Assembly: GCF_016859285.1 (NCBI RefSeq)
Contig: NC_053420.1
Location: 9,372,001 to 9,436,000, forward strand
Source: Xiphias gladius
Lineage: Eukaryota; Chordata; Actinopteri; Istiophoriformes; Xiphiidae
Length of the DNA: 64,000 nt
Direction: 5' to 3'
The notes beneath the pieces were generated by a model, which searched no databases, was not told where the DNA came from, and saw only the letters and a program-made list of their open reading frames with translations. Positions within the stretch are counted from its first letter, which is position 1. Each line of letters begins with the position of its first letter. Of this stretch, positions 21,199-63,964 are shown piece after piece. The position numbers were made by a program, and so were the translations under genes.

Positions 21199-22561
21199 GA
21201 AAATTATGAAAATGCAAGGTTCCCATCCATATCAGCCATTAAATTGGATATGAAACCTTCAACCACTTCCTGTTTACATTCAGAAAATATAAATTTGGGA
21301 TAGTAGTTGTAATCTGTTGAGCCACTCAAGCAGGGCTTCATTTCAGTATCCTGCCTACTTCTTTCGGATTTGTAGACTAATTTTTAAATTAGCTCTTATG
21401 CTTGAGCGTAGAATTTTTGATCCGAATTTCCGGACCTTTGACCATCTCTAACCTAAACCTGAAAATAACCATTTGCTGTTTGCAAATGAAGTGCTGAAGA
21501 CCAAAGAAGTCTTGTCAAAGTCCCGTTTAAATATAAACATGTCACACACAGATTTATTTATTTTTTTAATGTACTGTACTTGAGAAAACTCTTAAGATTA
21601 GTCCATCAACCTTCAGTGTTAGGTGAAGGTGTGTTTTCCTACTTTAAAAAGAGGAGCTGCTACATTTGGTATTATCCACACACTGAATTAAGGCTCCCAA
21701 AACTTCAGTGGAATGTAATTCAATTATTTATTTATTTATTTTTGCTTCACTAGTATTTGGGGCTGTAATCCAGTGTACAGACACTCTCCATTTGTCTCTC
21801 TGTTATCCTCCATCTGGCCTATAACAGGATTAGATGTGCAGTTTCTGTTCCTTGAAACTGCACCAGATATATAAAAAAGTACTGTATTCTTTATTTTGTC
21901 TGACTTTTGGGAAGCACGAAAAAAGAAGCTGAATATATACTTTTTTTTAAAGTGGCTATACTCAATATATTTTTTTTGTTAAGGATGGATCACATGACTA
22001 CTTACAGTATGCGGGAAAGGGGTCACTCAAAGTGATGAACCCACAGAGAATCATCACTGACTGCAGTTCCCTGCAGCTCTACAGAGCTCAATGTGCTGTT
22101 TTGGCTGCAGCGGGCAGCGGTTTTCAGCCAAAATGCTCTATACCAACGTTACGCTACTTACTTGGCACCGGCTCAGCCAGATATTTCCCCTCAGGAGTTG
22201 GTAGAGGCCGAGGACCAAGCTAAATGGAGAAAATATTGGGCTTACGTTCACTGATGCGAAACTGGGCTCCAAATGAATTCTAATGTTACTACCTACTGTA
22301 TCTGCTAGATGTGTGAATAGGCAACTGTTTGCTAACAAGTTGGCCAAATCACTGACACATAATATGTCAGTGTTCGTTTCACAGCTTGTTTCCACTGCCC
22401 CAGAGTGCCCAGAAAATCAGCCATTGCAGGTTTAAAGCACTGTGTGAGAAATGCAGTTGTCAACACACCGGTACAAGGCCTTGTCACCATGTGAATATAC
22501 TGTATATCTACAAGAACAGAGGTTTTTTTGGTGTCTGTTTACGCCCTTAGGTTGTGTGCCC

Positions 22562-23167
22562 ATGAGGTCGTCCGTGCTGGTCCTGTTCCTCTTCTTCAGT
22601 GCCCAGGCTGTGGCCACTATCGGAGGGGAATCGTGTGCCGCCACGACGGCACAGCAGCGGGACCCAGGCAGCAACCGCAACTCCATCCCCGCAGTGGACC
22701 CCAAGCTCTTCACCAAGCGCCACTACCTCTCACCCAGGGTGCTCCTCAGCTCCCAGCCCCCCGATGCAGAGCCGGCAGCGTCACGGGGTGCCGGCAGAAG
22801 GACGCGCAGGCGAGCAGGGCAGCCTCAGCACCGTGGGGTGTACTCGGTGTGTGAGAGCATCAGCGTCTGGGTTGGCAACAAGACCAAGGCCACAGACATC
22901 TCAGGCAACGAGGTGACGGTGCTCCCGGATGTGAACATCAACAATGTCAACAAGAAGCAGTACTTCTTCGAGACAACGTGTCACAGCGCTCACTCGGGCA
23001 GCACAGGCTGTTTGGGAATCGATGCGAGAAACTGGAACTCCTACTGCACCAACTCACACACTTTTGTACGAGCGCTGACTTCGTTTGAAAACCTGGTGGC
23101 GTGGAGGCACATACGCATCAACGTGGCCTGTGTGTGCGTGCTCAGCCGCAAGTCATGGCGGCAGTGA
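22562..23167 (+). CDS. ngf: Nerve growth factor precursor
   Basis: Secreted neurotrophin that acts as a dimer on TrkA and p75NTR to support sensory and sympathetic neurons. The frame gives 201 residues from the ATG at 22562. A hydrophobic signal peptide spans about residues 1-20. A short prodomain follows and carries the NGF-typical DPKLFTKR and SPRVLLSSQPP blocks. The basic furin site RRTRRR ends at residue 84, leaving a mature chain of 117 residues. The six cystine-knot Cys are at 97, 140, 150, 162, 190 and 192, with the family motifs WNSYC and ACVCVLSRK. The whole precursor lies in one exon, as is usual. An acceptor-like CCCTTAG lies 12 bases before the ATG, which supports this start, although the frame stays open upstream to 22451. 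There is a sequon (NKT) at residue 106 in the mature chain. Length is normal for fish NGF. The prodomain blocks separate it from BDNF and NT-3. Confidence 0.95.
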   Translation: MRSSVLVLFLFFSAQAVATIGGESCAATTAQQRDPGSNRNSIPAVDPKLFTKRHYLSPRVLLSSQPPDAEPAASRGAGRRTRRRAGQPQHRGVYSVCESISVWVGNKTKATDISGNEVTVLPDVNINNVNKKQYFFETTCHSAHSGSTGCLGIDARNWNSYCTNSHTFVRALTSFENLVAWRHIRINVACVCVLSRKSWRQ

Positions 23168-46914: not shown

Positions 46915-47190
46915 AAGTCAGGGGATCACCAAAATCATCAGAACACATTGTCTTGCGCCATGGATATCTTGTACAAAATTTCATGGCAATCCATCCGATA
47001 GTTGTAAAGGCAGGTCACTAAAAACCAAAAATGTCTACCTGCTGGTGGTGCAAAAGGAAAAGTTAGGGGAATCATCGCAGTCAGTAGTTGATGAGATATC
47101 TCAGTCTAAACCGAAGTGGTGGACGGATCAACCAAATGGCCGACCGACACTGGCATCCCTAGAGCCATGCTACTAGCATAGCTAAAAAAA
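46915..47190 (+). repeat. Dispersed repeat 'CATGGCAATCCATCCGATAGTTGT'
   Basis: AATTTCATGGCAATCCATCCGATAGTTG, then GAGATATCTCAGTCTAAACCGAAGTGGTGGACGG, CCGACCGACACTGGCATCCCTAGAGCCATGCTACTAGCATAGC. I recognise this as a very common percomorph repeat. Confidence 0.75.
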
Positions 47191-47604
47191 ATTCTCACAT
47201 TTTTTCTAGCTGAATAAACACAACACAAACAAAACTGTATGGTTTGTCTGAATGAAAGAGTGTTCGGTATGTGCACCACATAGCTGGTTCTCTTGAAGTG
47301 CTGATGGAAGCAAATTCCATTTCATCCACTGCTTTATCCATTAGGGTATTAGGGTTTTCAAAACACCTCTACAAAGGGAATTTCGGTTGGGCAATTCAAA
47401 CCATTGTGTCATATCAGTCCATTGATTTTAGAGTCATATCAGGTCAACTGTTAATATAAAGCATACAGCATAAATAACCCTCCAGTTATGTGGATATACA
47501 CGTAGAGCCATTCTTGACCATATCAATAATTTGTAATCAGAACGTGTTTTTGAAAAGTCATGACCTAACAAAAACCTATATTATATATTGTATATAAATA
47601 TATA

Positions 47605-47850
47605 TTATGCTTCCTAGGCGCCTTCCATTGGAAGTTGTCTTGGCACATCCAACTGGCAGGAGACTCCACGGTAGACCAACAAAATGCTGGAGAGACTATA
47701 TACTGTATATCATCTGGCCTAGGAACGTCTTGGGATACCCCAGGAGGAGGTGGACAATGTTGCTGGGGAGAGGGAAACCTGGACTACCTTACTCAACCTG
47801 CTTCCACCACGACCCGACCCCGGATAAGTGGCAGAAAATGGATGGAACTA
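47605..47850 (+). mobile_element. LINE-like 3' end fragment
   Basis: GGCGCCTTCCATTGGAAGTTGTCTTGGCACATCCAACTGGCAGGAGACTCC is followed by GGAGAGACTATATACTG, ATCTGGCCTAGGAACGTC, GGAATG-like CCCAGGAGGAGGTGGACAATGTTGCTGGGGAGAGG, and GGATAAGTGGCAGAAAATGGATGG. Teleost genomes carry many such tails, which encode the end of a reverse-transcriptase frame (RGRPRxRWRDYI-like residues are visible). The frame is broken by shifts, so it is a dead 5'-truncated copy. Family not assigned. Confidence 0.6.
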
Positions 47851-49518
47851 TATTTACCTACCAAATTGTTCTATATTGCATACATGCACCTATCAGCCAC
47901 AACATTAAAACCATTCAAGTGAATGAGAAAATGGTATATATACACCATTCAGCGACAACAAAACTAGTAACTGGTTTTAGTAGTAAAAATACTCTTACCT
48001 ACTAATTACAATGAAGGTTTGATCAAGAATAAAACAAATTGTCTAATAAAAGTAACCCGATTTTAACCATTTAATGCATATAGGTCAAAGGAAAGAAGCA
48101 GTGCAGTATTTCGTGCACTCAGAGGATAAAGTCATAGGCAATGGACTACAAATCCCCTAATGGACTTAATACTCCGTCATTCCGTCAGCTGACGGTTTGC
48201 AAGGGTTAAATAAAGTGTCAGATTGTCAGAAGTTGTGCAAGCTTCCTCAAGGCTATAGTGGCTAAGAAAACAAGTTTCCTAGTGTCAGCATTTTATGAAC
48301 TGGTTTTCCATCCATGTGTCCCCTTACACAATTAACTGGGCCACATCTAGCTTCTTCCACTTCTGCCCTCAAAACACACCTTGCCCCAAGGTGGAGTCAA
48401 AGCTAATAATTTTATGAATTATGTCAGGCATCAGTGGTATGCAGGCCTTTTGATATGGGGAGTAATGCAGTTGGTGATCACTCCTTTTGACTTGTGAAAG
48501 TGAGACCTTCTCTCTCTGTCAGAGGAAATTTCTCCTTGGCCATAAATACCTTTAAATCTATGATACAATATGCTGGCCTTTAGGTCACCATGTTTGTATT
48601 CTACTTTGTATTTCACGCTATTCTGATCAAAAATGCGATACACCGTCAGAGCCGCAGAGCCAACAAATAAGACAAATAAGGCTCAGTTACATCCAACAAC
48701 TGTCTAAACCTAACAAAGTAGTTTTTTCATAAACAATGAGACACTTTGATTAGAAAACTGTCACTAACAGGACACTATAATATACAGAAGTGACATAATA
48801 TAATATTGAGAGGAAAGATCGATGTGACAGAGGTCCACATGATGGACTTACCACACATTCTCCCACTCTGAACTGCTGAGCTATTAATAAGATCCAGCTG
48901 TCCTCCCAAATCCCCTTTGTGAATGGGAAACTACACATAAACTCTACCTGAGATGAGAACAAAATTACTCAACAGCTTATAAACACAATGTAAGTTTGGT
49001 GATTGGTGATTCTTCTGTGTGCATTGTGTCAAATGTTTCTGGTTTGACATTGTCACTGGTAATCCATATAATAATAAGTGGTGTGTCAACAATCATGTGC
49101 TTTCCAGAATGACTGTGGAGGCAAATATAGTATCATGAGGTGACATTGTGGAGCTTCATAGCCTTGTGTTTGTTATGTAGTAAACAGAAAGCTATGGTCC
49201 AGCACAGAATATGATTAAGTCAAGCACAGCTTAGTCTGAGAGCAATTTAGAGACTTCAGCTTTAATTGAGTTGCATTTAGAGTACCCCTTTCAGAGTAAA
49301 CATAATAAGTCTGGGAGTCACACATGTGCGTGTACAAGAGGATAAATAATGAAGCTGTCAGAAATACGCACCAGGATAAACCCTCATTGTAAACTGAGAA
49401 GCAGAGCTGCAGCACAGACACGTTGGGCAACAAAGGCACAATAAAACCAGCTGGTACAATAGATAACAGTAAAGGCAGTACAGATATCACTGTATCCATC
49501 ACAAGCTAGAGGATGATG

Positions 49519-49524
49519 TTTATT
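49519..49524 (-). terminator. tshb: tshb polyadenylation signal
   Basis: AATAAA on the minus strand, about 85 bases past the tshb stop codon. Confidence 0.6.
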
Positions 49525-49609
49525 TTTTCTTAAAAACATTCATGGTTCATGCAGTTCCAGCTCAGTAATTTTAACAAAAACAGACACGATGAGAACAAAA
49601 ACAAAACAA

Positions 49610-50923
49610 TCAGAAAGGGATCATGTAATTGCTCTGGCCAGGGTACGGATAGATACGTCGAACTGGTTTGGTACACTTAGCTCTGTCCACGCTGGCTCTG
49701 TGTGTGCACTCATCGCTGTCAGTCCTGCAGGCACCACAGTGGCAGCTGAGAGCCACAGGGTAGGTGTAGACAGGGTCGGAGTCGAAGGGACAGCCAGGCA
49801 GTATGGCTGTACGGTACTCCACCTTGTCATAGGTGCAGCCTCTCTGGATTAGGAAGCGTGGGCCGAGTATTTCCCGCATGTTGCTGTCCTGCTCATCATA
49901 CAAAAACACAAGCGTAACAGCACATGAATGATCTCGTGATACATTGCCCCTTGAGCTCATTATTTAGTGTGCTTGATTTCAGATGCAGTTGGGAAAAGAT
50001 GTGCCATGATTGTTTAATTTTAATGTGACTTCCTTACCTAATGTCAAACAGTGGATCTTTTAAATAAACGTACCTCGTGTCGTACTTATGTAAGGGTACA
50101 ACAAGTTGCAAGTTGCATAATTGTAATGGATGATGAGCGGGAAAAGGCCTTTTGTAAAATGAAACCGATCTCTTACAGTTGGAACTTAAACACAAAGGTT
50201 TGGTCAGATTTTAGTAACCATTTTCTACATTCTAGATTCTAAATTTATTGAAGACTTCATAATATATTTTGAATGTAAAGACTCTAAAATAAATGTATTT
50301 CAATTTTTTTATTTTGATGGGATTTTTTGAATTTACAAGTGCCATTTTTCTAGAAGATTGCCTAAAGTATGTTTTAATGTTTTCTTTCACGATTTTACAT
50401 GTTTGATAAGCTCCCCAAAATCTAATAAAAAACAGAGAATAAATACGGAATTTAATGTTATCACTTTTTTGATATAACTACCTTACCTTCCGTTTCCAGT
50501 TTAACACTTGATTACACACTTAGATGCTTGGCTATGATAAAAATGGAAAAGTGTTTTGATTGATAATGATTTTTGAAAAAAAAAAAAAAAAAAAAAAGTT
50601 TCAAAGTTGATCCACACCTTCCAGCTAAGTAGAATCAAGAATTTTTAGTGCCCATGGTCTAAACTATAACTTTTCCAATGCCGTTTGATAGTTTTCCTTC
50701 TTTCATCCTGAAGAGGTAACGACAGTCTATTCTTTGGACACAAAGGACTTTTAGTACATACCCTTGAGTAGCAAAATCCCACGCAGATAGTAGTGTTGAT
50801 CGCCACACAGAAGTCACACTGGGGCTTCTCCACGTACAGGGTGAAGTCAGTAGGTAAACACATGGGAACAGTTGGGCTGAACAGCAGGAAAAGGAACCAG
50901 CAGTTGAAAACGGCAGTCTCCAT
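49610..50923 (-). CDS. tshb: Thyroid-stimulating hormone beta subunit
   Basis: Secreted by pituitary thyrotropes, it pairs with the common alpha subunit to drive the thyroid. Two coding exons, 50762-50923 (54 codons) and 49610-49888 (92 codons plus stop), are split at a GTATGT donor and a GAGCAG acceptor. The intron sits next to YSR/D, the conserved position in glycoprotein-hormone beta genes. The product is 146 residues. A signal peptide spans about residues 1-20. The mature chain has the canonical twelve Cys at 22, 36, 39, 47, 51, 72, 87, 103, 105, 108, 115 and 126. An N-glycosylation site NTT is at 43-45, and the CAGYC-type motif appears as CVGFC. ILPGCP and YPVALSCHCGAC are family landmarks. 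INTTIC and the short Tyr/Pro-rich tail fit TSH-beta rather than FSH- or LH-beta, as does its place beside tspan2 and sycp1. Fish may carry a second tshb; this one is probably the ancestral-locus copy. Confidence 0.95.
50576..50597. repeat. Poly-A tract in tshb intron
   Basis: About 22 consecutive A, read directly. Confidence 0.85.
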
Positions 50924-51148
50924 GTTAAGTAACGTTATTTTTTCCAGTCAATTCTGGACCTGCATGGGAAAGAAAACATAGAGAGACAAGTTGACAACCA
51001 GATCACAGAGATGATCAAATGTTTGGTATCTTAAACATGGCATTCCTTGTTCTGCTCTGCCCGTGAAACTCACCTGCTTGAGAGATGTGGTCAACCGCCG
51101 TCCTGGTGATGCTGTGAGTCCGAACATTATTTATGCGAGCAATATATA
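50924..51148 (-). promoter_or_regulatory. tshb: 5' UTR exon and TATA-type promoter of tshb
   Basis: The start-codon exon extends to an acceptor (CCCATGCAG/GTCCAG) at 50959. A noncoding exon ends at CAAGCAG/GTGAGT (51074). About 40-70 bases upstream of that exon's likely start, the minus strand carries ATAAATAA (about 51127-51134) and TATATATT (about 51141-51148). Either could serve as the TATA box. A compact noncoding first exon with a TATA promoter is normal for pituitary hormone beta genes. Confidence 0.5.
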
Positions 51149-51227
51149 ATCCACCTTTCTCCAAGCTAGCCCTTATCATCTATCTGTGACGAAAAGGAAG
51201 AACTGAACTTTTTGGCCATTATGTGAA

Positions 51228-51246
51228 TGACATGCATTAATTATTT
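51228..51246 (-). promoter_or_regulatory. tshb: Possible Pit-1/POU site upstream of tshb
   Basis: The minus strand reads AATAATTAATGCATG, an AT-rich POU-type site. It is one mismatch from the Pit-1 consensus (A/T)(A/T)TATNCAT. It lies about 100 bases upstream of the candidate TATA boxes. Pit-1 drives tshb in mammals, so the position is suggestive only. Confidence 0.3.
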
Positions 51247-51249
51247 CCT

Positions 51250-53430
51250 TAATGGAGAGAGTTCATGCAGTAATCAGGGAGAATGGTGCAATGGATCATG
51301 CACTAGCTGAAAGCGTCTGTGCAACTCTGTATCTAATTTTGTCCAAAGTGGCCTGAAGCAGTGTCGACTAGGTGTCACAAAATGCTGAAAAGCTTTTTTT
51401 CCGCTTGAAAGAATGTATCATTTGTTAATCACCATTCAAATTTTAACCCGAGTTTTAGATCCTTTTCCAAAACAAACCTAATCTGTCTCTCATTTGAGCA
51501 AAAATTAACTGAAGCTTCTTTTAATGCAAAGTATTTCAATACACTGAATGTGCATGCACAGATCATGCTTTGTGTATTGTGGGTTAAAGAAATTAACACT
51601 AAAGAACAGTAGGCAATGTGCACAGCTCAATAAACAAACTGTTACAGTTAAAACGTGTGCAGAACATGGGTAGAAAAACATGCAGAGAGGGTTTATCTAA
51701 TCTTTTCTCCTGGTAAAAAATAAAAACTGCCGCAGTAAACACCAACATTAATGTCCAAATGTCGAATATTTCAGATGTGGACCACAAACTACTGACAAGT
51801 CAGTACCTCGACTTAAAAAGTGATAATACAATTAGAATTATCCACCCAACACCTCCAGAGTGCAGGGACTTCCTTAACTTTCCTTTTTCTTTAATGACTG
51901 TCAAGATAGCCGAAGTCTCTTTGATACATTAAGGTAACATTGTAAAGTATACGGTTGTTTTTAAAATCACTTTTATTAGTTAATAGTATACTGGGATTCC
52001 TACAGACAATCACACATCCTGCGCTGTGCAGTAAATTAGACTTAATATATTAAATTGTATATACACCAAAAAGTCTGATTAACTTCTTTTTAATTTCAGT
52101 ACCACAGTACACAGTACCTCTTACTGAATTGAAGTCCTCATCTACTAAAAGTTATATTTTACAATGCACGTAGCTAACTTTGTGTCATTTGCTCACACAC
52201 TTATTACACATTTATTATTACAATAAAACACTAGAATGGCACTCAATAGAGCGCGGGCCTATGCCAAGGCCGGGAAAAAAATTCAAATAAATATATAATA
52301 ATCATATTAAATGATCCGGATCTGCCCCAAAATTGAAGAGGTTCTTCCATGGCCCATGCCCCATCCCTCCAGCAACTTCGGTGCAAATTGGTTCGGTACT
52401 TTGTGCGTAATCCTGCTGACAAATAAACAAAACAGAAAACCACAAAACTTGGCAGAGAAACAGTCCAATGAAAATTCAGTGTTCATCTTAGCTGCTCTTT
52501 CTCGCTCTACTGCTCACCTTTACAACCATTAACAGTATGTGCCATTTGACATTAACCAGTTTTAATCTTGTGGCTTGATATGCCTTGTGCTGGCCTAAAC
52601 ATCTCTGTCAGCAGCTTTACGCCTACTTTTTTCTCTCGCATCTGCATTATTGTTTTACTGTAGTTGTAACGTTTTTCGTGTGACCCCTCTGCGTTGTTAT
52701 GTTCGAAATGATGTGTTTATCTATCTATCAAGGGATGATAATCAAAGATAAAGATGTTCTAAGTAAAACAATGGTAATCACATAAAAATATTATACGACA
52801 GTAGTAGTGACCCAACCTTAATGATTTAACCCTGCCTTGCCTCCTGAAATTCCTGACATAACCAATGACTACTGAGTAACCTGGAGCTGTCATCTTCAAA
52901 AGAGAAAGTCTCTTGTTTCAGGCACATCACAGGATACTGACCTTTTACCATCACTAAAATTATGGCTGACTTCAGTACAATGTGTCCTTGATGGATTATT
53001 AACTAAAGTGAAGAAATCTTTATAGTCTGCTGAATGCTTTAGAGTGGACCAGAGCAGAAATAGTTGAGGTATCTGAGTGTTCTACTGGCAAAGCGGAACA
53101 CAACAGGCAACTAAAACCTGGAAATCTGAGGATTTTTCCATTCTTTGCTGAAGGTCTGAAGAGAAACTTTTAATATGAATGCAGCTGATTTTTAATCTTT
53201 TTGACAGTTGACAGATTCTGAAAAGTGCTGAAAAGCTTTTTTTGCTATCTTTAGAGTGTATTTTTGCTTTTGGCATTGGTATATGTACCCCTGGACCTAA
53301 GGGCAATTTCGGGATAATTATAGGGAAGAACATTAAATATTGGCAAGATACCATAATACAGAAATCCTGCTGAATCTAAGCCTTCTTAACTACAGCTCGA
53401 AGAAAAAGGTACGAGGACGCTCCATCTGCT
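51250..53430. other. Intergenic between divergent tshb and slc5a8-like
   Basis: About 2.2 kb shared by two divergent promoters. It contains one dispersed repeat (52.23-52.43 kb) and no coding exon that I can support. The slc5a8-like 5' UTR must begin in its right part. Confidence 0.5.
52235..52430 (+). repeat. Dispersed repeat 'GATCCGGATCTGCCCCAAAATT'
   Basis: GCGCGGGCCTATGCCAAGGCCG, ATGATCCGGATCTGCCCCAAAATTGAAG, CATGCCCCATCCCTCCAGCAAC, AAATTGGTTCGGTACTTTGTGCGTAATCCTGCTGACAAA. This is a familiar teleost repeat with clear block order. Confidence 0.7.
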
Positions 53431-53439
53431 GAACTAACC

Positions 53440-56400
53440 ATGGTTGGTACAGGTGGTCCAGTGGCCACTTTCTCTGTGTGGGATTATGTGGTATTCGCTG
53501 GAACGATTTTGGGGGCAGCTGGTATTGGGCTCTTCCAGGCCGTTCGAGGCCGCAAGGAGACCAGCAGCGCTGAGTTCTTGTTGGGCGGACGGCAAATGAC
53601 AGCGGTGCCGGTTGCCATGTCCCTCACTGCCAGCTTCATGTCTGGCATCACGGTCATTGGCACCCCGGCCGAGGCCTACCAGTTTGGAACTGCCTTCTGG
53701 ATTTTTGGCTTTTCCTATGCTATCATGTCTGCTGTCACTGCTGAGATCTTTGTCCCACTTTTCTACCGACTGGGGATCACCAGTGCCTATGAGGTGAGGT
53801 GTCACAGGCATCTGAATCATTTTAATGGTACAAGAGCTTGCCGACAGGTGCAGCAGTAAATAACTTACAATTAACGACCAATAAGGCAAGCATGCTTTAT
53901 TTGTAGGCTATAGAAATACAACACTTCTATAGTTGATGTTTCTATTGATTCATCCACTATAGTTGGCAGTGTCTTGTTTAAAATGATCAGTGGTTCATAA
54001 GGCTGTACTGTATCCAACTGGTATAAAAGAATGTCCTCCAAAAGGTGAGTATAAGTTGGGAGTAAAACATAAAGAAACAAAAACAAACAAACACTTTTAA
54101 TATTCTGTAAATATGGATGTGTATAATAAGCCATTATGTGTGAGCAATCCAATCCATCAGTTTACTGACGTTTGACGGTTTAAGTTTCCCTTTTATTTCT
54201 AGTACCTGGAGATGCGCTTCAGCAAGCCCATTCGGATAATTGGCACATCAATGTACATTGTGCAGACGGTAAATAAAACTATGCTTTTACTGAAAAAGAA
54301 AGAGGAATATTCAGTCACTTTTTGTAATTAGATAATTAAAAACAAAACTACAAAACAATGAAGAGTTGAACAAATGCCCTTGATTAAAATGATGAATCTA
54401 ACAAGGTAAACAGCACCTGCCTTTTTTCTTTTTGACTTTATGTAAAATTGATTCTTGATGCCAATTCCAAGAATACATCAATATGAATCCCATGGTTGTT
54501 ATGCTTCAATCTAATCAACTAATGGTGGGATCTTTTCTCAGGCTCTGTACACCGGTTTGGTCATCTATGCTCCAGCTCTTGCACTAAATCAAAGTAAGCC
54601 GAAACACAAAAAGCTCACAAAACTAGGGTAGATAAGTATTTTTTTAGGTTTTAGCCTTACTAAACTATAATACAGATACAGTGTTCTGTCTAATCTCCTT
54701 ACAATGATCTATATTTTCAGGACAAAATAGTTTATGTACTACTCATATCACTGTTATGACATTAGTTTTTCTTTCTCTCTTGTGTGTCACACGTGTTCTT
54801 GTTATAAATAAAGGGAAAACCCAAATTGAGTGTCAAGTTACAGAGATGGATACTTATATCATTTTAACCTATGAATCATCATGGAGCTTTTATTTCCATA
54901 CTAGTCACTGGACTTGATCTGTGGGGAGTGCTAGTGGCTACAGGAGTGGTGTGCATCCTCTACTGCACTTTGGTTCGTACTGTACATTTCAAAAAGTATT
55001 ATAAATTGTACTGAATTAACGATCTGTGTACCCAACAGTATACAAAAAGTGTGTAATGTAAAAAAACATGGACTAAGATCCTCAAGTCCAAGTGTGTTTC
55101 TATTTTAAAGAGTCAGACCAAAAACAGTCTGGTTCATTATGGTTTTTATGAACAATTTTACACTTTGGCACCATCATACACCTATTTTAGTTTGTGGTTC
55201 ATAAAATTGAAACTGCATGACAATGTATCGTTGTAAACATTCGAACATTTCAGTAAGCCTCAACTCAGCATTAAATGGGAAAGAATACACAAAAGCACAT
55301 GGAAATGTTCAGCTATCCCTAGAATTTTGTTTCAGGGCGGTCTGAAAGCAGTAATCTGGACAGATGTGCTTCAGATGGTGATCATGCTGGCAGGTTTTGT
55401 GGCTGTTATAGCTAGAGGAGCTGTACTGCAGGGAGGCCTGACGAAGATTTGGGAAGATGCAGGCCAAGGAGGCCGACTAAAGGCCTTTGAGTAAGTACAC
55501 CAGCAGACTAGTGTTTGTTGTAAGAGTGTGTTTTAAACTGATAACGCTACCAGATAGGTGGGGCTTCCTGGATCAGAGCAATTGAATGAGCTTCTTCTAA
55601 GTTTGCAGCCACAGGGAAAGAAACTAGATCAACATTCTTATAATTTCCTGCTACCCCTAATTGCTATCGTATCTACAGAAGGAAGCTTCACTGGAAACTG
55701 TTCTGCACTCAGTCAAAAAAAACTGATTATATCAGTGATTGACAGACCTCTTACTAACTTAAAAGTGACACCCTACATTTTTGGAAGTCTGTACTGTGAT
55801 GTCCCCAAACGGTACCTTCAGTATTCTTCTGTATCATTGATATTCTATCAAAGTTTTGACCCAGATCCTCTGAAGCGACATACTTTCTGGACCATTATAG
55901 TCGGTGGTAGCGTGATGTGGATCTCTATCTACTCTATCAATCAGTCCCAGGTGCAGCGCTACATCTCCTGCAAAACCCTGGGACATGCCAAGATGTGAGT
56001 GTTCCTGCAAGGCAGTGCAACAGCAAACTGTTCTATTGACTGTGAGCCAAGGTTCATGCACTGACAAATCTTCTCTTATCTTTCAGATCTTTGTATGTGA
56101 ACATGGTTGGCTTGTGGGTAACTGTGAGCCTGGCTATGTTTTCTGGCCTCACCATGTACTCAATTTACAAGAACTGTGACCCACTAACAAACGGTGATTT
56201 GAGCACATCTGACCAGGTAACTGCAGCTGCAGTTGTCTCCCAACTCCGCCATCACACGGCCGTCATACTGTGTCTTACCCAACAAATTTTAGAGTCAACA
56301 GTAAAAATGGTCTATATTTGTAAACCAGCTGCTGCCCTACCTTGTGATGGATATTCTGGCAGACTACCCAGGAATCCCTGGCTTGTTTGTGGCTGCTGCA

Positions 56401-59400
56401 TACAGTGGGACCCTTAGGTGAGGCCTGAAAAACAAGGAAAAATGTACTATTTTGCATCAGAGTCAGGAATGCTGTATTGATAAGGAAAGGTACAGCGGTG
56501 AGGAAATAATGAGCTAGCGATACCTGGATCATGTTGCTTCCTGAGAAAAAGTCCACATCATTGTTACTGTTGCATTTACATTTCCAGTCCTTTTATTTAC
56601 ACATTATGCAAGCAACCCACCATCTCCCTGCTACCCGAGACTAATCTTATCTAAATGCTAATCTACCATTTAAATGCGTCAGCCTTACTGTTTTTTTTTT
56701 TCGGTGACAAAAACTTACTGTTGCTTATTTCTCAGCACGGTGTCGTCCAGCATTAATGCCCTGGTCGCTGTCACCGTGGAAGACTTTATTCTCCCTGTGT
56801 GCAAAAACCTCACAGAGAGACAAGTGACCTGGATGAACATGGGCCTGAGTAAGTTGTGTCAAAAAATACTGTCGTGCTAGCCCACGAATGATCACGTACG
56901 ATAGAAATGTGGAAGGAAAAGAGTGAGTGAAGCCAATTTTTTGTGATTTACAGAAAAAAAAATGTTCAGAAGAAAATGTTTTCCTTAAGACCTTTGTCAA
57001 TTATTAAAACATGCCTGGAGCAAAAAGGTCCTCAAACACTTCATAACCTAGTATGAGTTTAAAGCAGATTCTTATTATGAATACCCCAGTAATCACTATA
57101 CAGTAGGACTCCTATCACCCTCTCACTCCAAGAAACTCACTAGATGCCAGTAGACACCAAGATGACAGCTATCTCATTCTGTTACTGTTAAGAGATAGCT
57201 AAACATGTTACCAGCTCCACTGTGCAAGTTATGACGTTACCATAAATGTGTTAAAGGCATACAAAATCGAGTTTATTTTAATTACGTCATTATGATTTGT
57301 GAAGAAAAGAAGATTTCACAGGACACGATGCACAAACATTGGTTAATGTTACAATAATGTGCAGGATTTCTTCAGGAGATTTAATGAGAAAAACATGCAC
57401 AGGCAGGAACTCGTGAGCTTCTTTTGGGAAGGTTAAGGTCAAGGGTGCGGCTCCACTATCTCATTTTCCCTGGGAACGCTGCAACAGGAGAATAATTCAA
57501 GACATTGGTTAGTATGGATCTGTGTGCTATTTTTACACAATGTTACAATGTTCCTGTTCCTTGCAGTGCACTGGAAGGTGCTGATTAGAGCTGTTATTTA
57601 TAGGAGTGAAACAGACAGAAAACAGGGTTTCTGAAGGGTTCACAAAGTTAAATTCAGGATTTTTAAGACCTTTTTCATACCACATAAAATGAAATTTAAT
57701 ATCTCTTTCATAATCATGCCAGCAGAAGTATGAATAAAAAAACCAGTAGGGATGATATGACCCAGAATTACTTATTATTATTTCACTGTTTTTTTTCTTT
57801 TTGGCAGTGAAACTCCACAAAAAGGATTACAGCTTGCTGCGCACACAATCCTCTGTCAAAACAATCCCGCTTCTAGTTTCTAAGCATGAAACGTCTCCTG
57901 ACAACCCACAATTGGATACAAAAAAATGCTCATAAATAACATTACTGCCTATGGCAGGCAAGATAAAAATATTTAGGACTTTTGCTAAATTCAATTCAAG
58001 ACCTTTCAATGGATTAGGTTTAGGATTAGGGTTTGCAGACCTGCTGAAAATTCATACATCAGTGACATTTATCACAAAAGTTTGATGAGAAAATTTAAAG
58101 TTGTACGACCCAGATGTAGCTTTCCTGTAAAATCTGTGTGTAAGAATTTAGCTCATCTGCCTTAAACATTTGTATCTGTATTTTTGGAAGTTGCGAGGAC
58201 ACCTTTTCTTTTAGTTTAATAACGCTGATTTAACATCTCCCAGGTGTGTTCTTTGGGGCCCTTTGTATCGGGATGGCTGGAATTGCTTCAGCGATGGGAA
58301 GCATTCTGCAGGTAAACCTATCCCAACACCCTGCACTAACACGCACTACTGTAGCCATTCACTGCTCTACAGCACCACCATGAGCTGCATATTAAAAACT
58401 ACAAGCCTCCTTCCAATTTTCTAATTTTCAGGCTGCTCTGTCCATATTTGGCATGATCAGCGGGCCTCTTCTCGGTCTTTACCTGTTAGGCATGTTTTTC
58501 CGCACAACAAATTCAATAGTGAGTATTTTCTATTACTGGAACCTTTACTAGAACAACTGCACCCTCTGACAACACAAAACAAAAAATCTTGTGACACATC
58601 CATGAAATGTTTGACTCCAGTCATATTTACTTTGCAGGGAGGACTACTGGGAATGATTATTGGTCTAGCGTTGACTCTGTGGGTGGGGATTGGAGGCCAG
58701 ATCTACCCACCAACACATGAGAAGACAAATCCTCTGCATCTCAGCACTGTGGGCTGCAATAGCACCATGAGCCAGAACTACACAACGACAGCTCCCTGGA
58801 CCAGTCCAATGACTCTGACCCCGCAGCCTGAGTGAGTCATGTTACGTAAAATAAAGGTCCATTTGATGATACTCAAGCACATGACTTGGTCACAGTAATA
58901 TGTAGTAATACTGGTGGTCACTAAAATTAATGCTGACTTAATATTCAAACACCGATTCTACTGAAAACAAGTTGAATAAAACTGAATCATTAGGAAAAAA
59001 CCAATCCAAAGCCTAAAAGACTTAATTTCATTGGCAATTCATCATGAAAAGTAAAAACATCTCCGAAAACATTTTAGCCTTACAGCTTTCATCACTGTAT
59101 CCCAGCTCAGAGGCAATGTTCCCATATGTATGCAACAAAAAACAGGTGCTACATTATCATGGTCTTGGTCCACAAATTTGATTAAGCAAATATGTTGCAC
59201 CCGCTACTTTTCTGGACTACATTTCTGAAATAAATTTTTGTCTAGGCTGTACATTTATTCCAAAAATTCTAAAATACATGTTAGCTGGATAAAACATCTG
59301 AAGATCCCCTTAGAATATTTTATGACCTTCTTTAGACCAAATGATTAATCGAGGAAATAATCAACAGATGAAGTGATGATGAAGCTAACCGTTAAGTCAA

Positions 59401-60329
59401 AGCCCTACTTTATAAAACTGTGTCATCAGAAAAAGGTGTCACGGATTTTGGTGTATCAAGTGTATAGTAAAAGGTGGATCATCAGAATAGAAGCTTGTGT
59501 TGTACAAGAGCTTCCTAGTGAAGTCATAGTCAAAAGTACTCAAATCTACTCTCACATTGTGTATAGTGCCATCCCATAAAGGCCTTATGTGGCTGTAAGA
59601 CTTGATGTAGTTGTGACTCTATGTGATCGAACGTAGCACGTTGGTGGTAGAAATATTTTAATATCTTCCAATCTTGAGGGTTTTTGGTAGTGTTAATATC
59701 ACCAAGCAGTTTAACACCACGTGTTAAAGGAATAGTTTGACTTGGATCAGTAAAATGATTTCCTGTGTGTATCAGTGTCAGACCAGCTTTGGCAGACTCC
59801 TGGTACTCTCTGTCCTATCTCTACTTCTCTCTGTTGGGCGCACTGACGACAATCGTGTCTGGCCTGCTGGTGAGCATTGTCACAGGTAAGACACCCTTCT
59901 CTAACCCCTACTTCCACTGCAGAGACACAACAATGCTGGAAAAGTGTCAATGTTTCATATTAGAACGTGTAAAACTGTTATGGGAATATGGAGCTGTGTT
60001 TTAGGTGGATGCAAACAACAGAAGCTGAGCTCTGATCTGTTTGTAAAGAAGAGCGACCTGATCTGCTTCAGCCGCTTTAGTAAATCAAAGGTAAGATTTT
60101 GACCCTTTTGTCAGGTAACGGGTAAAAAAGTAAGGATATACCAATATTACTCACTAAACCAAGCAAGATTTTGTTATGTTATTAATATGCTATTTATGTT
60201 CTTATCCCACTACAGGTATCAGATGCCCCAGAAAAGGCTGCAAAAGAGATTCACATTGGAGCTGACAACTCAACATTCTCAGAATTTGATGTGATGAGCA
60301 ACGATGTTGAAAAAGCAACCAAACTGTAA
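53440..60329 (+). CDS. slc5a8l: Sodium-coupled monocarboxylate transporter, SLC5A8-like
   Basis: Plasma-membrane sodium symporter for lactate, pyruvate, short-chain fatty acids and nicotinate. Fifteen coding exons: 53440-53793, 54203-54268, 54542-54593, 54905-54972, 55336-55490, 55854-55994, 56087-56216, 56329-56417, 56736-56848, 58244-58311, 58432-58518, 58638-58831, 59776-59885, 60005-60090 and 60216-60329. All have AG/GT borders and consistent phase, giving 608 residues (human SLC5A8 610). Family landmarks in order: [106 protein letters not shown] and [10 protein letters not shown]. Sequons follow the GCNST block in a late extracellular loop. The C-terminus ends T-K-L, a class I PDZ ligand like the T-R-L of human SLC5A8. 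It reads closer to SLC5A8 than to SLC5A12. The start is in good context (ACCATGG). The symbol is tentative; orthology needs a tree. Confidence 0.92.
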
Positions 60330-61400
60330 TGCTGCAGTATCAATGCACCACTCCTCGTGGAGACATTCTTATTTTTATTTTATAAACAGATGAATGACAA
60401 GCCACAATTATTTTGCTGCTACATCGATGTGGTGCATTTGATTTGAGTTGTGCATTTGGAAAAGAAAAAGAAAAAAAATGAACTCTATTACCTGGATGTG
60501 TGTATGTATGTTAATACGACTTATGAGATATTTTAACAATGTTGCTAAAAATACATTATTACTTATATTTTGTATTAAGAAGGAGCTTGACATGTAGTAA
60601 TAAGGCTCAGAAAACGTAAAACTGAACTTACAAAGAATGTAATTTAAATTTAAAAACTTGACGACTTATGTCGCTACCAAACTGAGGTGCTTAAACGGCA
60701 GAAAAAAAAAGAAATAGTACGAAAATGTTCTTCTTCTATTACATAATTCTTTAATTAAATAAAGACATTAATGCTGTTGTAATCTTTATCACAATAGGGA
60801 AAAGGGCACTTAAAGTAGCACAAGGTTACCACATCTTTTGCTCCACAGATTGTTCTACCCCCATTTCCTGTCCAGCAGTGATGTGGCAAAATTGTTTTAC
60901 TTTTATTTCCCTTTGTTCAGTTGTTCTCTCTTATACCGACTCCTAGCTCTATATTCTGCCTGAACCCTGTACTTCCTCATTTTATTCTTACACAGAATGG
61001 CCCACTGGAATATTGTTGTTGCCCATTTGTTTTTGGGTATTTGTTTATTGCCCGGTTATTTTGATAAGGAATTAGTTCAATCTTTATGAATTACCTGTAC
61101 AAATTAAACACAAAACAACCCTTTAATAAATATTTTGCACAAAATTCAACAATGTTGACTGAAAACACACATATAAACAGGTATACAAAGTCAGCGCAAG
61201 GAACTACAGCAAGTGCATGATCTTCGTATGTGAGAGAAAATACAGAGCAGTGAAGTGAAGAAAAATACATTTACTGTGTAGTTAATGTTTTTGCAATGCA
61301 GCTCCAGTTCTATTCTAGGCTGTAAAATTTATTTGAACTGCGTGAGAGGGAGAGACAGAGAGAAAGAGAGAGATTGAGCTTTGGTCTAGGTAACAACCGT
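60330..61400. other. 3' UTR of slc5a8-like gene and intergenic DNA
   Basis: AT-rich. It includes the polyadenylation signal at 60758, a further AATAAA near 61124, and a short (GA)n tract near 61346-61372. No coding exon seen. Confidence 0.5.
60758..60763 (+). terminator. slc5a8-like polyadenylation signal
   Basis: AATAAA about 430 bases after the stop codon. Confidence 0.6.
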
Positions 61401-61407
61401 GTCCTTT

Positions 61408-61421
61408 GTCTCCTTGGCAAC
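61408..61421. promoter_or_regulatory. RFX X-box-like element
   Basis: GTCTCCTTGGCAAC matches the palindromic X-box pattern (GTNNCC, short spacer, RGCAAC) bound by RFX factors. It lies about 190 bases before the donor of the probable noncoding first exon of the mucin-like gene. A second, looser motif (GGTAACAACC) lies 17 bases to its left. Confidence 0.4.
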
Positions 61422-61479
61422 ATACAATAGAAAGTGTACAGAGCTCTGACCTGCCCACTTTTACCTGCTGCTATATCAG

Positions 61480-61601
61480 CAAATAAACTCTTTAGCTCTT
61501 CCAAGTTTGTAGGAAGTGGAGAGTCAGCCGTGACATGGAGGCTGACTCACTGCCAGGGAAGTGAACTAAGTTACTGTTTTCAGTCATACCAACAAAACAA
61601 G
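61480..61601 (+). other. Probable 5' noncoding exon of the mucin-like gene
   Basis: A strong donor (AACAAG/GTGAGC) after 61601 fits the acceptor TTTGTTTTCCAG ahead of the start codon at 62072. The exon's left end is not defined. Confidence 0.4.
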
Positions 61602-62071
61602 GTGAGCCGTTTTTTGTTTTTTTTCTAAATCAGTATACAAAAATGAATTCTGTAAAAGTCATTTACTTTTTAATCAAAGTTTGGACTTAGTCAAGCTTTC
61701 GCATGAGAGGGAGATTAGAAAATGTTTCCATCAATGTAGCTACAAAAGATCAGAGAGTTGGTAGGCTATTATGTATTTTCTTAGAATGTACAAAGTCATG
61801 TCTAGTGTGTACAGTCATTTCCTGCTGCAAGTATGTTAATATAAACTGAAAATGTATTGCATAAGTCCTACTTACACAAGGCACCATGTTTAAGGTATTG
61901 TTTACACTGCATAACATTGTCAGGGACTTACAAAACTCAGACTTTGATTTTAAACTGAATATTGCAAAGTTAATGGAAAGAGATGTATTTATCAGGGCAG
62001 TGTTTACAGTTTTTATTTTACACAAGTGTTTTTCAACCCATGTTTTGTTTTCCAGTACAGCATCTAGTGCC

Positions 62072-63033
62072 ATGGATACCATCTTTGCTACTCTGCCTTG
62101 TTACCTTCTGGCCATTTCTTTTGCTGTGGCACAAAAAGAAAAAGGGAATTTGATTATCGCACCGGCAACAGCAACCCCTGGCTTAAACGTGACAAACACA
62201 ACTACATTTCTAACATCTTCTAACTCCACTGTACATGCAACTGTTATCTCAAATGTGACTGATGACACAACTCCATTTACCATCACAACCTGGGACAATG
62301 AAACATTCAACGAAACCACAAGTCACCCCCAGACTCCTCAGTCAACAACCATCTTGACTCCCCTAACAAATAGTCCCTCACTGACAACTGCCACACCTGG
62401 CACTCACGCTCCAACATTTACTGTGCTGACAGTGCCAGCAATCCAGACCTCAGCAGGTAACATTGGTACCGCTGATACTACAGTCATTACAACTGAAAAT
62501 TCATCTCACACTCTCAATACAACTTTAGATTCAGTGAACAGAATCCCACAAGGTTAGCATCAGGCTCCATTTTCTAATTTGCAAAGTTCTATTAATAATT
62601 CAATTGCTCATTTTATGCTTTTATTTAACTTCTGTCAATTACTTCCTTTTTTCCTATGCTTCTAGGTTTTGGACTAAACATTTCAGAAAAGAATTTGACT
62701 ATTGTCTTCAGTGTTGCACTGGGAGTGTTCGCTGTGGCACTGGTTATGTTCATGTTTCAAAGATGTAAACAGAAAATCCAATACTTGCATCAGCCTCTTA
62801 ACGACACTAATTACACAGGTAAGTAGCTCTCCAGTCATCAAACAATCAATACAAATTATTTTACTTATTATTAGCAGTTAAAAATACCTATTTAATTTTC
62901 AACAGATGGATTTGCAGCAGATGATGATACACTCATAATTTCTGGAGGACTTTATGATGGCCATCAGCTCTACGATAATGTACCTACAGCCCCAGAAGAC
63001 CAATCCCAATTTCACCTCGAGTTCCTTCATTGA
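62072..63033 (+). CDS. Mucin-like single-pass membrane glycoprotein, MUC15-like
   Basis: Three coding exons: 62072-62552, 62666-62818 and 62906-63033, with AG/GT borders and consistent phase, 253 residues. A signal peptide spans about residues 1-20 (MDTIFATLPCYLLAISFAVA). A Thr/Ser/Pro-rich ectodomain (about 25-168) has ten N-glycosylation sequons. A membrane segment lies at about 171-192. A 60-residue cytosolic tail follows RCKQK and carries an acidic DDDT block and two closely spaced Tyr motifs (LYDG and LYDNV). This is a type I sialomucin architecture. Human SLC5A12 is followed on the same strand by MUC15, and here an SLC5A8-like gene is followed on the same strand by this gene. MUC15 is therefore the best guess, although the ectodomain cannot be aligned by eye. 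The open frame extends upstream to 61886, but an acceptor just before 62060 and the signal peptide support the ATG at 62072. Confidence 0.75.
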
Positions 63034-63636: not shown

Positions 63637-63964
63637 TTAAGCAAAGATCTTCTCATTGTTCTTCTTTTTTTTCTTGTCACAGCCAGTAACCGCAGTCCAA
63701 CCAGCATCCCTCATCCTTTTCATTGCAGCTAGCTTCAAGGAATTCCCTGGTGATTTATGAGTGAAAGGGCTCTGGATCTGAAAAAATGTTGAGCGTTTTT
63801 TAAATAACATTTACAGGGCTTATTTCATTTTTGTTTGTGCATAAAATGCTTAAAGATCATTTTAAAATAACATAACGCCCACTAGGGCAGTATGTTACCT
63901 TTTTGAAAGTGCTGAGTTTTGAGTGTGGAGCAGAAAAAATGGGTGTGGGTGCATTTGCAAAGGT
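63637..63964 (-). CDS. sycp1: Synaptonemal complex protein 1, last two exons (partial)
   Basis: Transverse-filament protein of the synaptonemal complex in meiosis. Two exons are visible: 63899-63964 (22 codons) and 63637-63777 (46 codons plus stop). Acceptors are CTTCTTTATAG and ATTTTTTCAG; the donor after the first is GTAACA. The final exon encodes SPGNSLKLAAMKRMRDAGW and ends in a Lys-rich stretch and NEKIFA. That matches my memory of the human SYCP1 C-terminus (GSTLK...KMR...W...KKK...EKLF). In human, SYCP1 lies next to TSHB in the same relative orientation, which supports the call. The rest of the gene, including the long coiled coil, lies beyond the window. Confidence 0.8.

Follow-up and report, generated by a model that had tools for sequence, protein, structure and literature searches.

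The transporter gene beside tshb in the swordfish (Xiphias gladius) window, the whole stretch of 64,000 nucleotides that was analysed, is slc5a8l (SMCTe). It is an old gene within the SMCT branch of SLC5, which fishes have retained next to tshb and tetrapods have lost. This is already in print. The fuller reading, in which slc5a8l encodes an SMCT1-like symporter, is followed by a separate mucin-like gene and belongs to a block of 2R copies, is highly probable as a whole. A sequence-only reading of the same DNA had proposed that one ancestral block of neurotrophin, glycoprotein hormone beta, SMCT transporter and mucin genes was duplicated and that mammals lost two of its members. That proposal was partly supported. 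It was right for the transporter, as had already been published, too narrow on the loss, and unsupported for the mucin.

Gene Order and Gene Models

The genes of the window lay in the order ngf (+), tetraspanin (+), mitochondrial carrier (-), tshb (-), slc5a8l (+), mucin-like gene (+) and presumed sycp1 (-). The features were as follows.

22448..23167, plus strand: stop-to-stop frame containing ngf, given as context (Pfam NGF, E 1.7e-50)
49610..50923, minus strand: tshb, coding exons 50923-50762 and 49888-49610 (Pfam Cys_knot, E 1.9e-29)
50924..53439, unstranded: divergent tshb/slc5a8l interval, tentatively proposed as a shared regulatory region
53440..60329, plus strand: slc5a8l (SMCTe), 15 coding exons, 608 aa (splice model, Pfam SSF, SMCT1 structure 7sl9)
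Coding exons of slc5a8l, plus strand: 53440-53793, 54203-54268, 54542-54593, 54905-54972, 55336-55490, 55854-55994, 56087-56216, 56329-56417, 56736-56848, 58244-58311, 58432-58518, 58638-58831, 59776-59885, 60005-60090, 60216-60329
62072..63033, plus strand: putative mucin-like single-pass membrane protein, 3 coding exons, 253 aa (splice model, shuffle test, hydropathy)
62072-62552, plus strand: mucin-like exon 1, predicted signal peptide and Thr-rich ectodomain
62666-62818, plus strand: mucin-like exon 2, predicted juxtamembrane and transmembrane parts
62906-63033, plus strand: mucin-like exon 3, predicted cytoplasmic tail
63637..63810, minus strand: presumed last coding exon of sycp1 (open frame)

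An intact 15-exon SLC5A8-like gene and a mucin-like gene on the same strand had been claimed beside tshb, and both were recovered as splice models (53440-60329 and 62072-63033). The proposed limits of the feature, 53440 and 63033, coincided with the start and end of these models. The slc5a8l model opened with the ATG at 53440 and closed with a stop codon ending at 60329. It held 608 codons plus the stop with no internal stops, and all 14 introns were of the GT...AG type.

The gene lay between tshb and sycp1, the sycp1 side being a presumed exon of 57 aa (63637-63810, minus strand) that had no Pfam match. We take this piece to be sycp1 from its resemblance to the protein and from the published gene orders (PMC9309457, PMC4048157), and the names slc25a55a for the mitochondrial carrier and tspan2 for the tetraspanin were taken from the same orders. 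The carrier, as a join of two frames, matched Pfam Mito_carr at 7.1e-12. For the tetraspanin the match (E 0.0003, 20.9 bits) fell under the curated cut-off of 32.1, perhaps because the query was part of an unspliced frame. An open frame was also seen at 47598-48005 (plus strand), which judged by eye may be the closing part of a LINE-type reverse transcriptase ORF. Repeats detected in 47000-53500 comprised three short families of two copies each, together with four inverted pairs, also short.

Family and Pocket Residues of the Transporter

The slc5a8l product matched Pfam SSF at 6e-38; it was full-length for an SSF protein and came closest to the SMCT/NIS branch. The solved-structure search covered 177,635 distinct sequences, seven of which matched at E 1e-20 or better. 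The best solved relative was human SMCT1/SLC5A8 (7sl9, E 1.9e-224), aligned over residues 7-601 of 608, followed by NIS (1.6e-167) and the multivitamin transporter (5.6e-137). Identity was 57.7% to SLC5A8 (589 columns), 51.0% to SLC5A12, 48.4% to NIS and 46.3% to SMVT, where the SLC5A12 sequence, here and in the site and column counts below, was a provisional one.

Twenty sites (NIS numbering) were compared among the window protein, four vertebrate SLC5 proteins and a bacterial outgroup. The sites were drawn from PMC12892324 and PMC7034854, apart from 66, 76, 90, 293 and 413, which were our own choice. Seven sites (72, 76, 90, 94, 293, 357 and 417) separated NIS from both SMCTs, and the window carried the SMCT letter at six of them and the NIS letter at 293. 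The residues S69 and Y144 (PMC12892324) and D191, Q194, Q263, S349, S353 and T354 (PMC7034854) were common to slc5a8l and the four vertebrate proteins; the outgroup departed at 144, 349 and 354. S416 and F417 are further sodium ligands in NIS (PMC12892324) and were replaced by A and L in slc5a8l, as in SLC5A8. Most letters of the sodium site were kept. In 101 columns SLC5A8 and SLC5A12 shared a letter that differed from that of NIS; there the window sided with the SMCTs in 69, with NIS in 14 and with neither in 18. With the provisional SLC5A12 left out, SLC5A8 and NIS differed in 259 columns, and the window matched the former in 114 and the latter in 49. Judged by these residues, slc5a8l is a monocarboxylate-type member, not an iodide-type one.

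The linkage to tshb had been noted as a curiosity, probably a coincidence, SLC5A8 having first been discussed as a thyroid apical transporter. Under a rival reading slc5a8l would carry iodide apically in the thyroid axis, and its place beside tshb would be functional. A weak slc5a8l signal in a thyroid follicle of stickleback at 30 dpf (PMC9309457) and the NIS letter at site 293 are consistent with this. The iodide site of NIS, however, consists of Q72 and Q94 (PMC12892324), and slc5a8l has T and Y there, as do SMCT1 and SMCT2. Tetrapods, moreover, retain the thyroid axis. They do so although slc5a8l has been lost from them (PMC9309457), and a role of slc5a8l in thyroid iodide transport is extremely improbable.

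The monocarboxylate-type reading gives the following picture. The protein most likely works as an alternating-access symporter like SMCT1, driven by the sodium gradient. Its substrates would most likely be lactate, pyruvate, short-chain fatty acids and other monocarboxylates of this kind, and it would probably be placed at the apical face of epithelia. Plata in 2007 reportedly described, to go by the title, electrogenic sodium-monocarboxylate transport by SLC5A8L/SMCTe.

Retention in Fishes and Loss in Tetrapods

The gene order around slc5a8l and its presence in gar, coelacanth and lungfish were published in 2022 (PMC9309457). In that study slc5a8l formed a monophyletic group and lay at the tshb locus in gar and coelacanth, although TSHB is missing from the coelacanth order as printed; hence it is not a teleost-only copy. 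A presence at the tshb locus outside teleosts had been expected for other fishes and for amphibians. It holds for gar and coelacanth and fails for amphibians (PMC9309457). The loss itself stood, but its restriction to mammals did not, as slc5a8l was absent from the tetrapod genomes available at the time (PMC9309457).

Earlier studies had met the same gene. In 2012 SMCTe was kept apart from SMCT1 and SMCT2, and no good evidence was seen for a fish-specific gain or a tetrapod loss (PMC3319611). This SMCTe appears to be slc5a8l because of its place on stickleback group 17 (PMC9309457, PMC3319611). In 2014 the cluster sycp1-slc5a8l-tshb-slc25a22-tspan2 was given for seven fishes, all teleosts, besides the grouper neighbours (PMC4048157).

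Origin of the SMCT Genes

A 2R origin of slc5a8l was proposed tentatively in 2022, starting from paralogs on human chromosome 2, and the origin of SLC5A8 was left unclear (PMC9309457). The same paper considered the relationships among slc5a5, slc5a8, slc5a8l and slc5a12 to be poorly resolved. A tetra-paralogon uniting the glycoprotein hormone beta and neurotrophin genes with lin7 and kcna genes was established in 2011 (Dos Santos, PMC3280201). The main text of that paper contains neither 'slc5a' nor 'muc15'. Its [TSHb], [FSHb] and [GPHb-ghost] sets include human chromosome 1, chromosome 11 at 0-48 Mb and chromosome 12 at 0-124 Mb, respectively. When the two sources were combined (PMC9309457, PMC3280201), the empty SLC5A8L site, SLC5A12 and SLC5A8 fell in these regions in that order, and the three SMCT genes occupied three of the four published neurotrophin/glycoprotein hormone beta regions. 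SLC5A8L (beside NGF/TSHB), SLC5A12 (sharing a chromosome with BDNF/FSHB) and SLC5A8 (sharing one with NTF3) would then be 2R copies of one region, and SLC5A8 would gain an origin. The placement agrees with the published remark that the SLC5A8L, SLC5A8 and SLC5A12 sites, but not that of SLC5A5, share proto-chromosome 11 (PMC9309457).

A direction follows from the paralogon. NGF was paired with NTF3 and BDNF with NTF4 (PMC3280201), and slc5a8l should therefore pair with SLC5A8 rather than SLC5A12. In a FastTree analysis of six sequences slc5a8l was joined to SLC5A8, with a support of only 0.811. The four-taxon site patterns numbered 17 for the window with SLC5A8, 14 for the window with NIS and 10 for the window with SLC5A12. 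The identity of SLC5A8 to other sequences is raised because it has the shortest branch. Tree and site patterns point in the predicted direction and are too weak for proof. Furthermore, the [GPHb-ghost] set is nearly the whole of chromosome 12, so the fit of SLC5A8 is a weak test and could be due to chance. If confirmed, the placement of SMCT1, SMCT2 and SMCTe on the neurotrophin/glycoprotein hormone paralogon would explain the source of SLC5A8.

The Mucin-Like Gene

The mucin-like model ran from the ATG at 62072 through three coding exons to a stop ending at 63033, and encoded 253 aa. Both introns were of the GT...AG type and in phase 1. Hydropathy marked the N-terminus as hydrophobic and gave a single strong hydrophobic stretch, near residues 168-195. 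In the 148-residue ectodomain there were 39 T, 13 S and 11 P, along with 9 N-glycosylation motifs. At 230 codons, the stop-to-stop frame of the gene was longer than the longest frame in each of 300 dinucleotide shuffles (3.3 kb; maximum 177), but the part from the ATG to the splice site, about 160 codons, was below that maximum; the case for a real gene rests, therefore, on the whole architecture. From this architecture the gene is likely real, and its product would be a surface protein separate from slc5a8l and without a known family assignment. No Pfam family scored above the cut-off, and no Pfam SEA match, as a SEA-type membrane mucin would give, was obtained up to E 10. Matches to Glu_cyclase_2 (E 0.041 for the whole protein, 0.014 for the tail) and Adeno_E3_CR2 (tail, E 0.064) were under the cut-off and were set aside as chance. 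A solved-structure search up to E 10 gave six matches, the best being an antibody heavy chain at 0.027, and these were attributed to composition. The tail exon (62906-63033) encodes the letters YDNV, a candidate for the YxN motif bound by Grb2.

The gene might be the ohnolog of MUC15, in which case the SMCT and mucin genes would have been duplicated together, and the tetrapod TSHB locus would have lost its copy of each. Its order and strand relative to the transporter match those of human SLC5A12 and MUC15, and the build is similar, a Ser/Thr-rich ectodomain being followed by a single membrane span and a short tail. Both SLC5A12 and MUC15 lie at ANO3 in human (PMC9309457, PMC2151771). The sequence comparisons, however, argued against this relationship. 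Pfam Mucin15 (PF15672) matched neither the whole protein nor the membrane-plus-tail part at E up to 10, a search in which the program filters discard most weak matches; human MUC15, as a provisional sequence, scored 544 bits against the same library as a positive control. BLASTP against this human MUC15 gave a best E of 0.11 with the low-complexity filter and 0.50 without it, the Smith-Waterman score of the tail was reached by 77 of 1000 shuffles, and single-sequence hhalign returned a probability of 0.8% (P 0.075). Mucin ectodomains diverge fast, and the missing similarity is therefore weak evidence against MUC15. As to the surroundings, human MUC15 sits within introns of TMEM16C/ANO3 (PMC2151771), and no ANO gene was recognised among the window frames inspected. 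In their text, figures aside, the two published fish gene orders mention no mucin here (PMC9309457, PMC4048157), and literature searches on muc15 with synteny, slc5a12 or fish returned no title on the mucin-like gene among the matches listed. MUC15 was called mammal-specific in 2007, chicken and Xenopus showing traces of similarity (PMC2151771), and in 2017 a contig from sea trout that carries a Muc15 domain was annotated as MUC15, its best match being pike MUC15 (PMC5315281), so that a recognisable MUC15 exists in fishes. Membership of the mucin-like gene in MUC15 is unsupported at the level of sequence, and the ohnolog relationship is improbable. Of the joint duplication of SMCT and mucin in one block, the transporter half is supported; the mucin half is not.

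The Divergent Interval Between tshb and slc5a8l

The tshb and slc5a8l genes were head to head, on the minus and plus strands, with 2,516 bp between their ATGs (50924-53439). One shared divergent regulatory region may lie here, and the kidney activity reported for the fish tshb promoter would then stem from a promoter or enhancer of slc5a8l working in the opposite direction. We consider this possible, on balance not favoured. A 1.8-kb fragment upstream of grouper tshb drove GFP in the proximal pronephric tubule, and its activity was weakened by knockdown of Pax2a or Hnf1b (PMC4048157). Given the head-to-head arrangement, this activity may belong to slc5a8l, as grouper tshb directly adjoins slc5a8l (PMC4048157), on its upstream side if the orientation is that of the window. 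Consistently, zebrafish slc5a8l has been published as a marker of a pax2a-positive gonadal soma cluster, and Xenopus slc5a8 as a marker of the proximal tubule segments PT2 and PT3 and also of IT2 and DT1. Zebrafish slc5a12 has likewise been published as found in the pronephros.

Other observations weigh against a shared region. A motif scan of the interval with ten consensus patterns (HNF1, HNF4, Pax2/8, Pit-1 and others) found none enriched, since each observed count was reached by 20 or more of 100 shuffles. The tshb mRNA itself was reported in grouper kidney, and in zebrafish as data not shown (PMC4048157). By in situ hybridization in stickleback the stronger kidney gene was slc5a8, not slc5a8l (PMC9309457). 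As to earlier proposals of such a region, the word 'bidirectional' is absent from the main text of the grouper promoter paper (PMC4048157), and a literature search showed the phrase 'bidirectional promoter' in none of the matches listed; the idea may still have been published. Two 40-nt stretches near opposite ends of the interval, 51379-51418 and 53222-53261, are 78% alike, which may be chance.

A broader combination goes further: tshb and slc5a8l would form an old divergent regulatory unit, expression of fish tshb in kidney and gonad would be spill-over from the slc5a8l promoter, tetrapod tshb would have been freed by the loss of slc5a8l, and the mucin-like gene would be a further member of the block lost with it. 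We regard this combination as rather unlikely. A shared divergent promoter, if confirmed, would explain why the promoter of a fish pituitary hormone marks kidney tubules.

Comparison With Known Systems

The mucin-like protein shares with MUC15 the architecture of a type I membrane mucin-like protein but has no significant sequence match to it. Human SLC5A12 (SMCT2) is a paralog of slc5a8l on 11p between ANO3 and FIBIN and was lost in percomorph fishes (PMC9309457). Human SLC5A8 (SMCT1, 7sl9) carries the same letters as slc5a8l at NIS sites 72, 76, 90, 94, 357, 416 and 417 and differs at sites 71 and 293; it is a paralog located elsewhere, on human chromosome 12 and at gar Loc8 (PMC9309457). 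The closest counterpart is stickleback slc5a8l/SMCTe (ENSGACG00000005284), where the order ngf-tspan2-slc25a55-tshb-slc5a8l-sycp1 is that of the window (PMC9309457, PMC4048157). No difference from the fish slc5a8l/SMCTe was found, and the window adds to this order the mucin-like gene between slc5a8l and sycp1.
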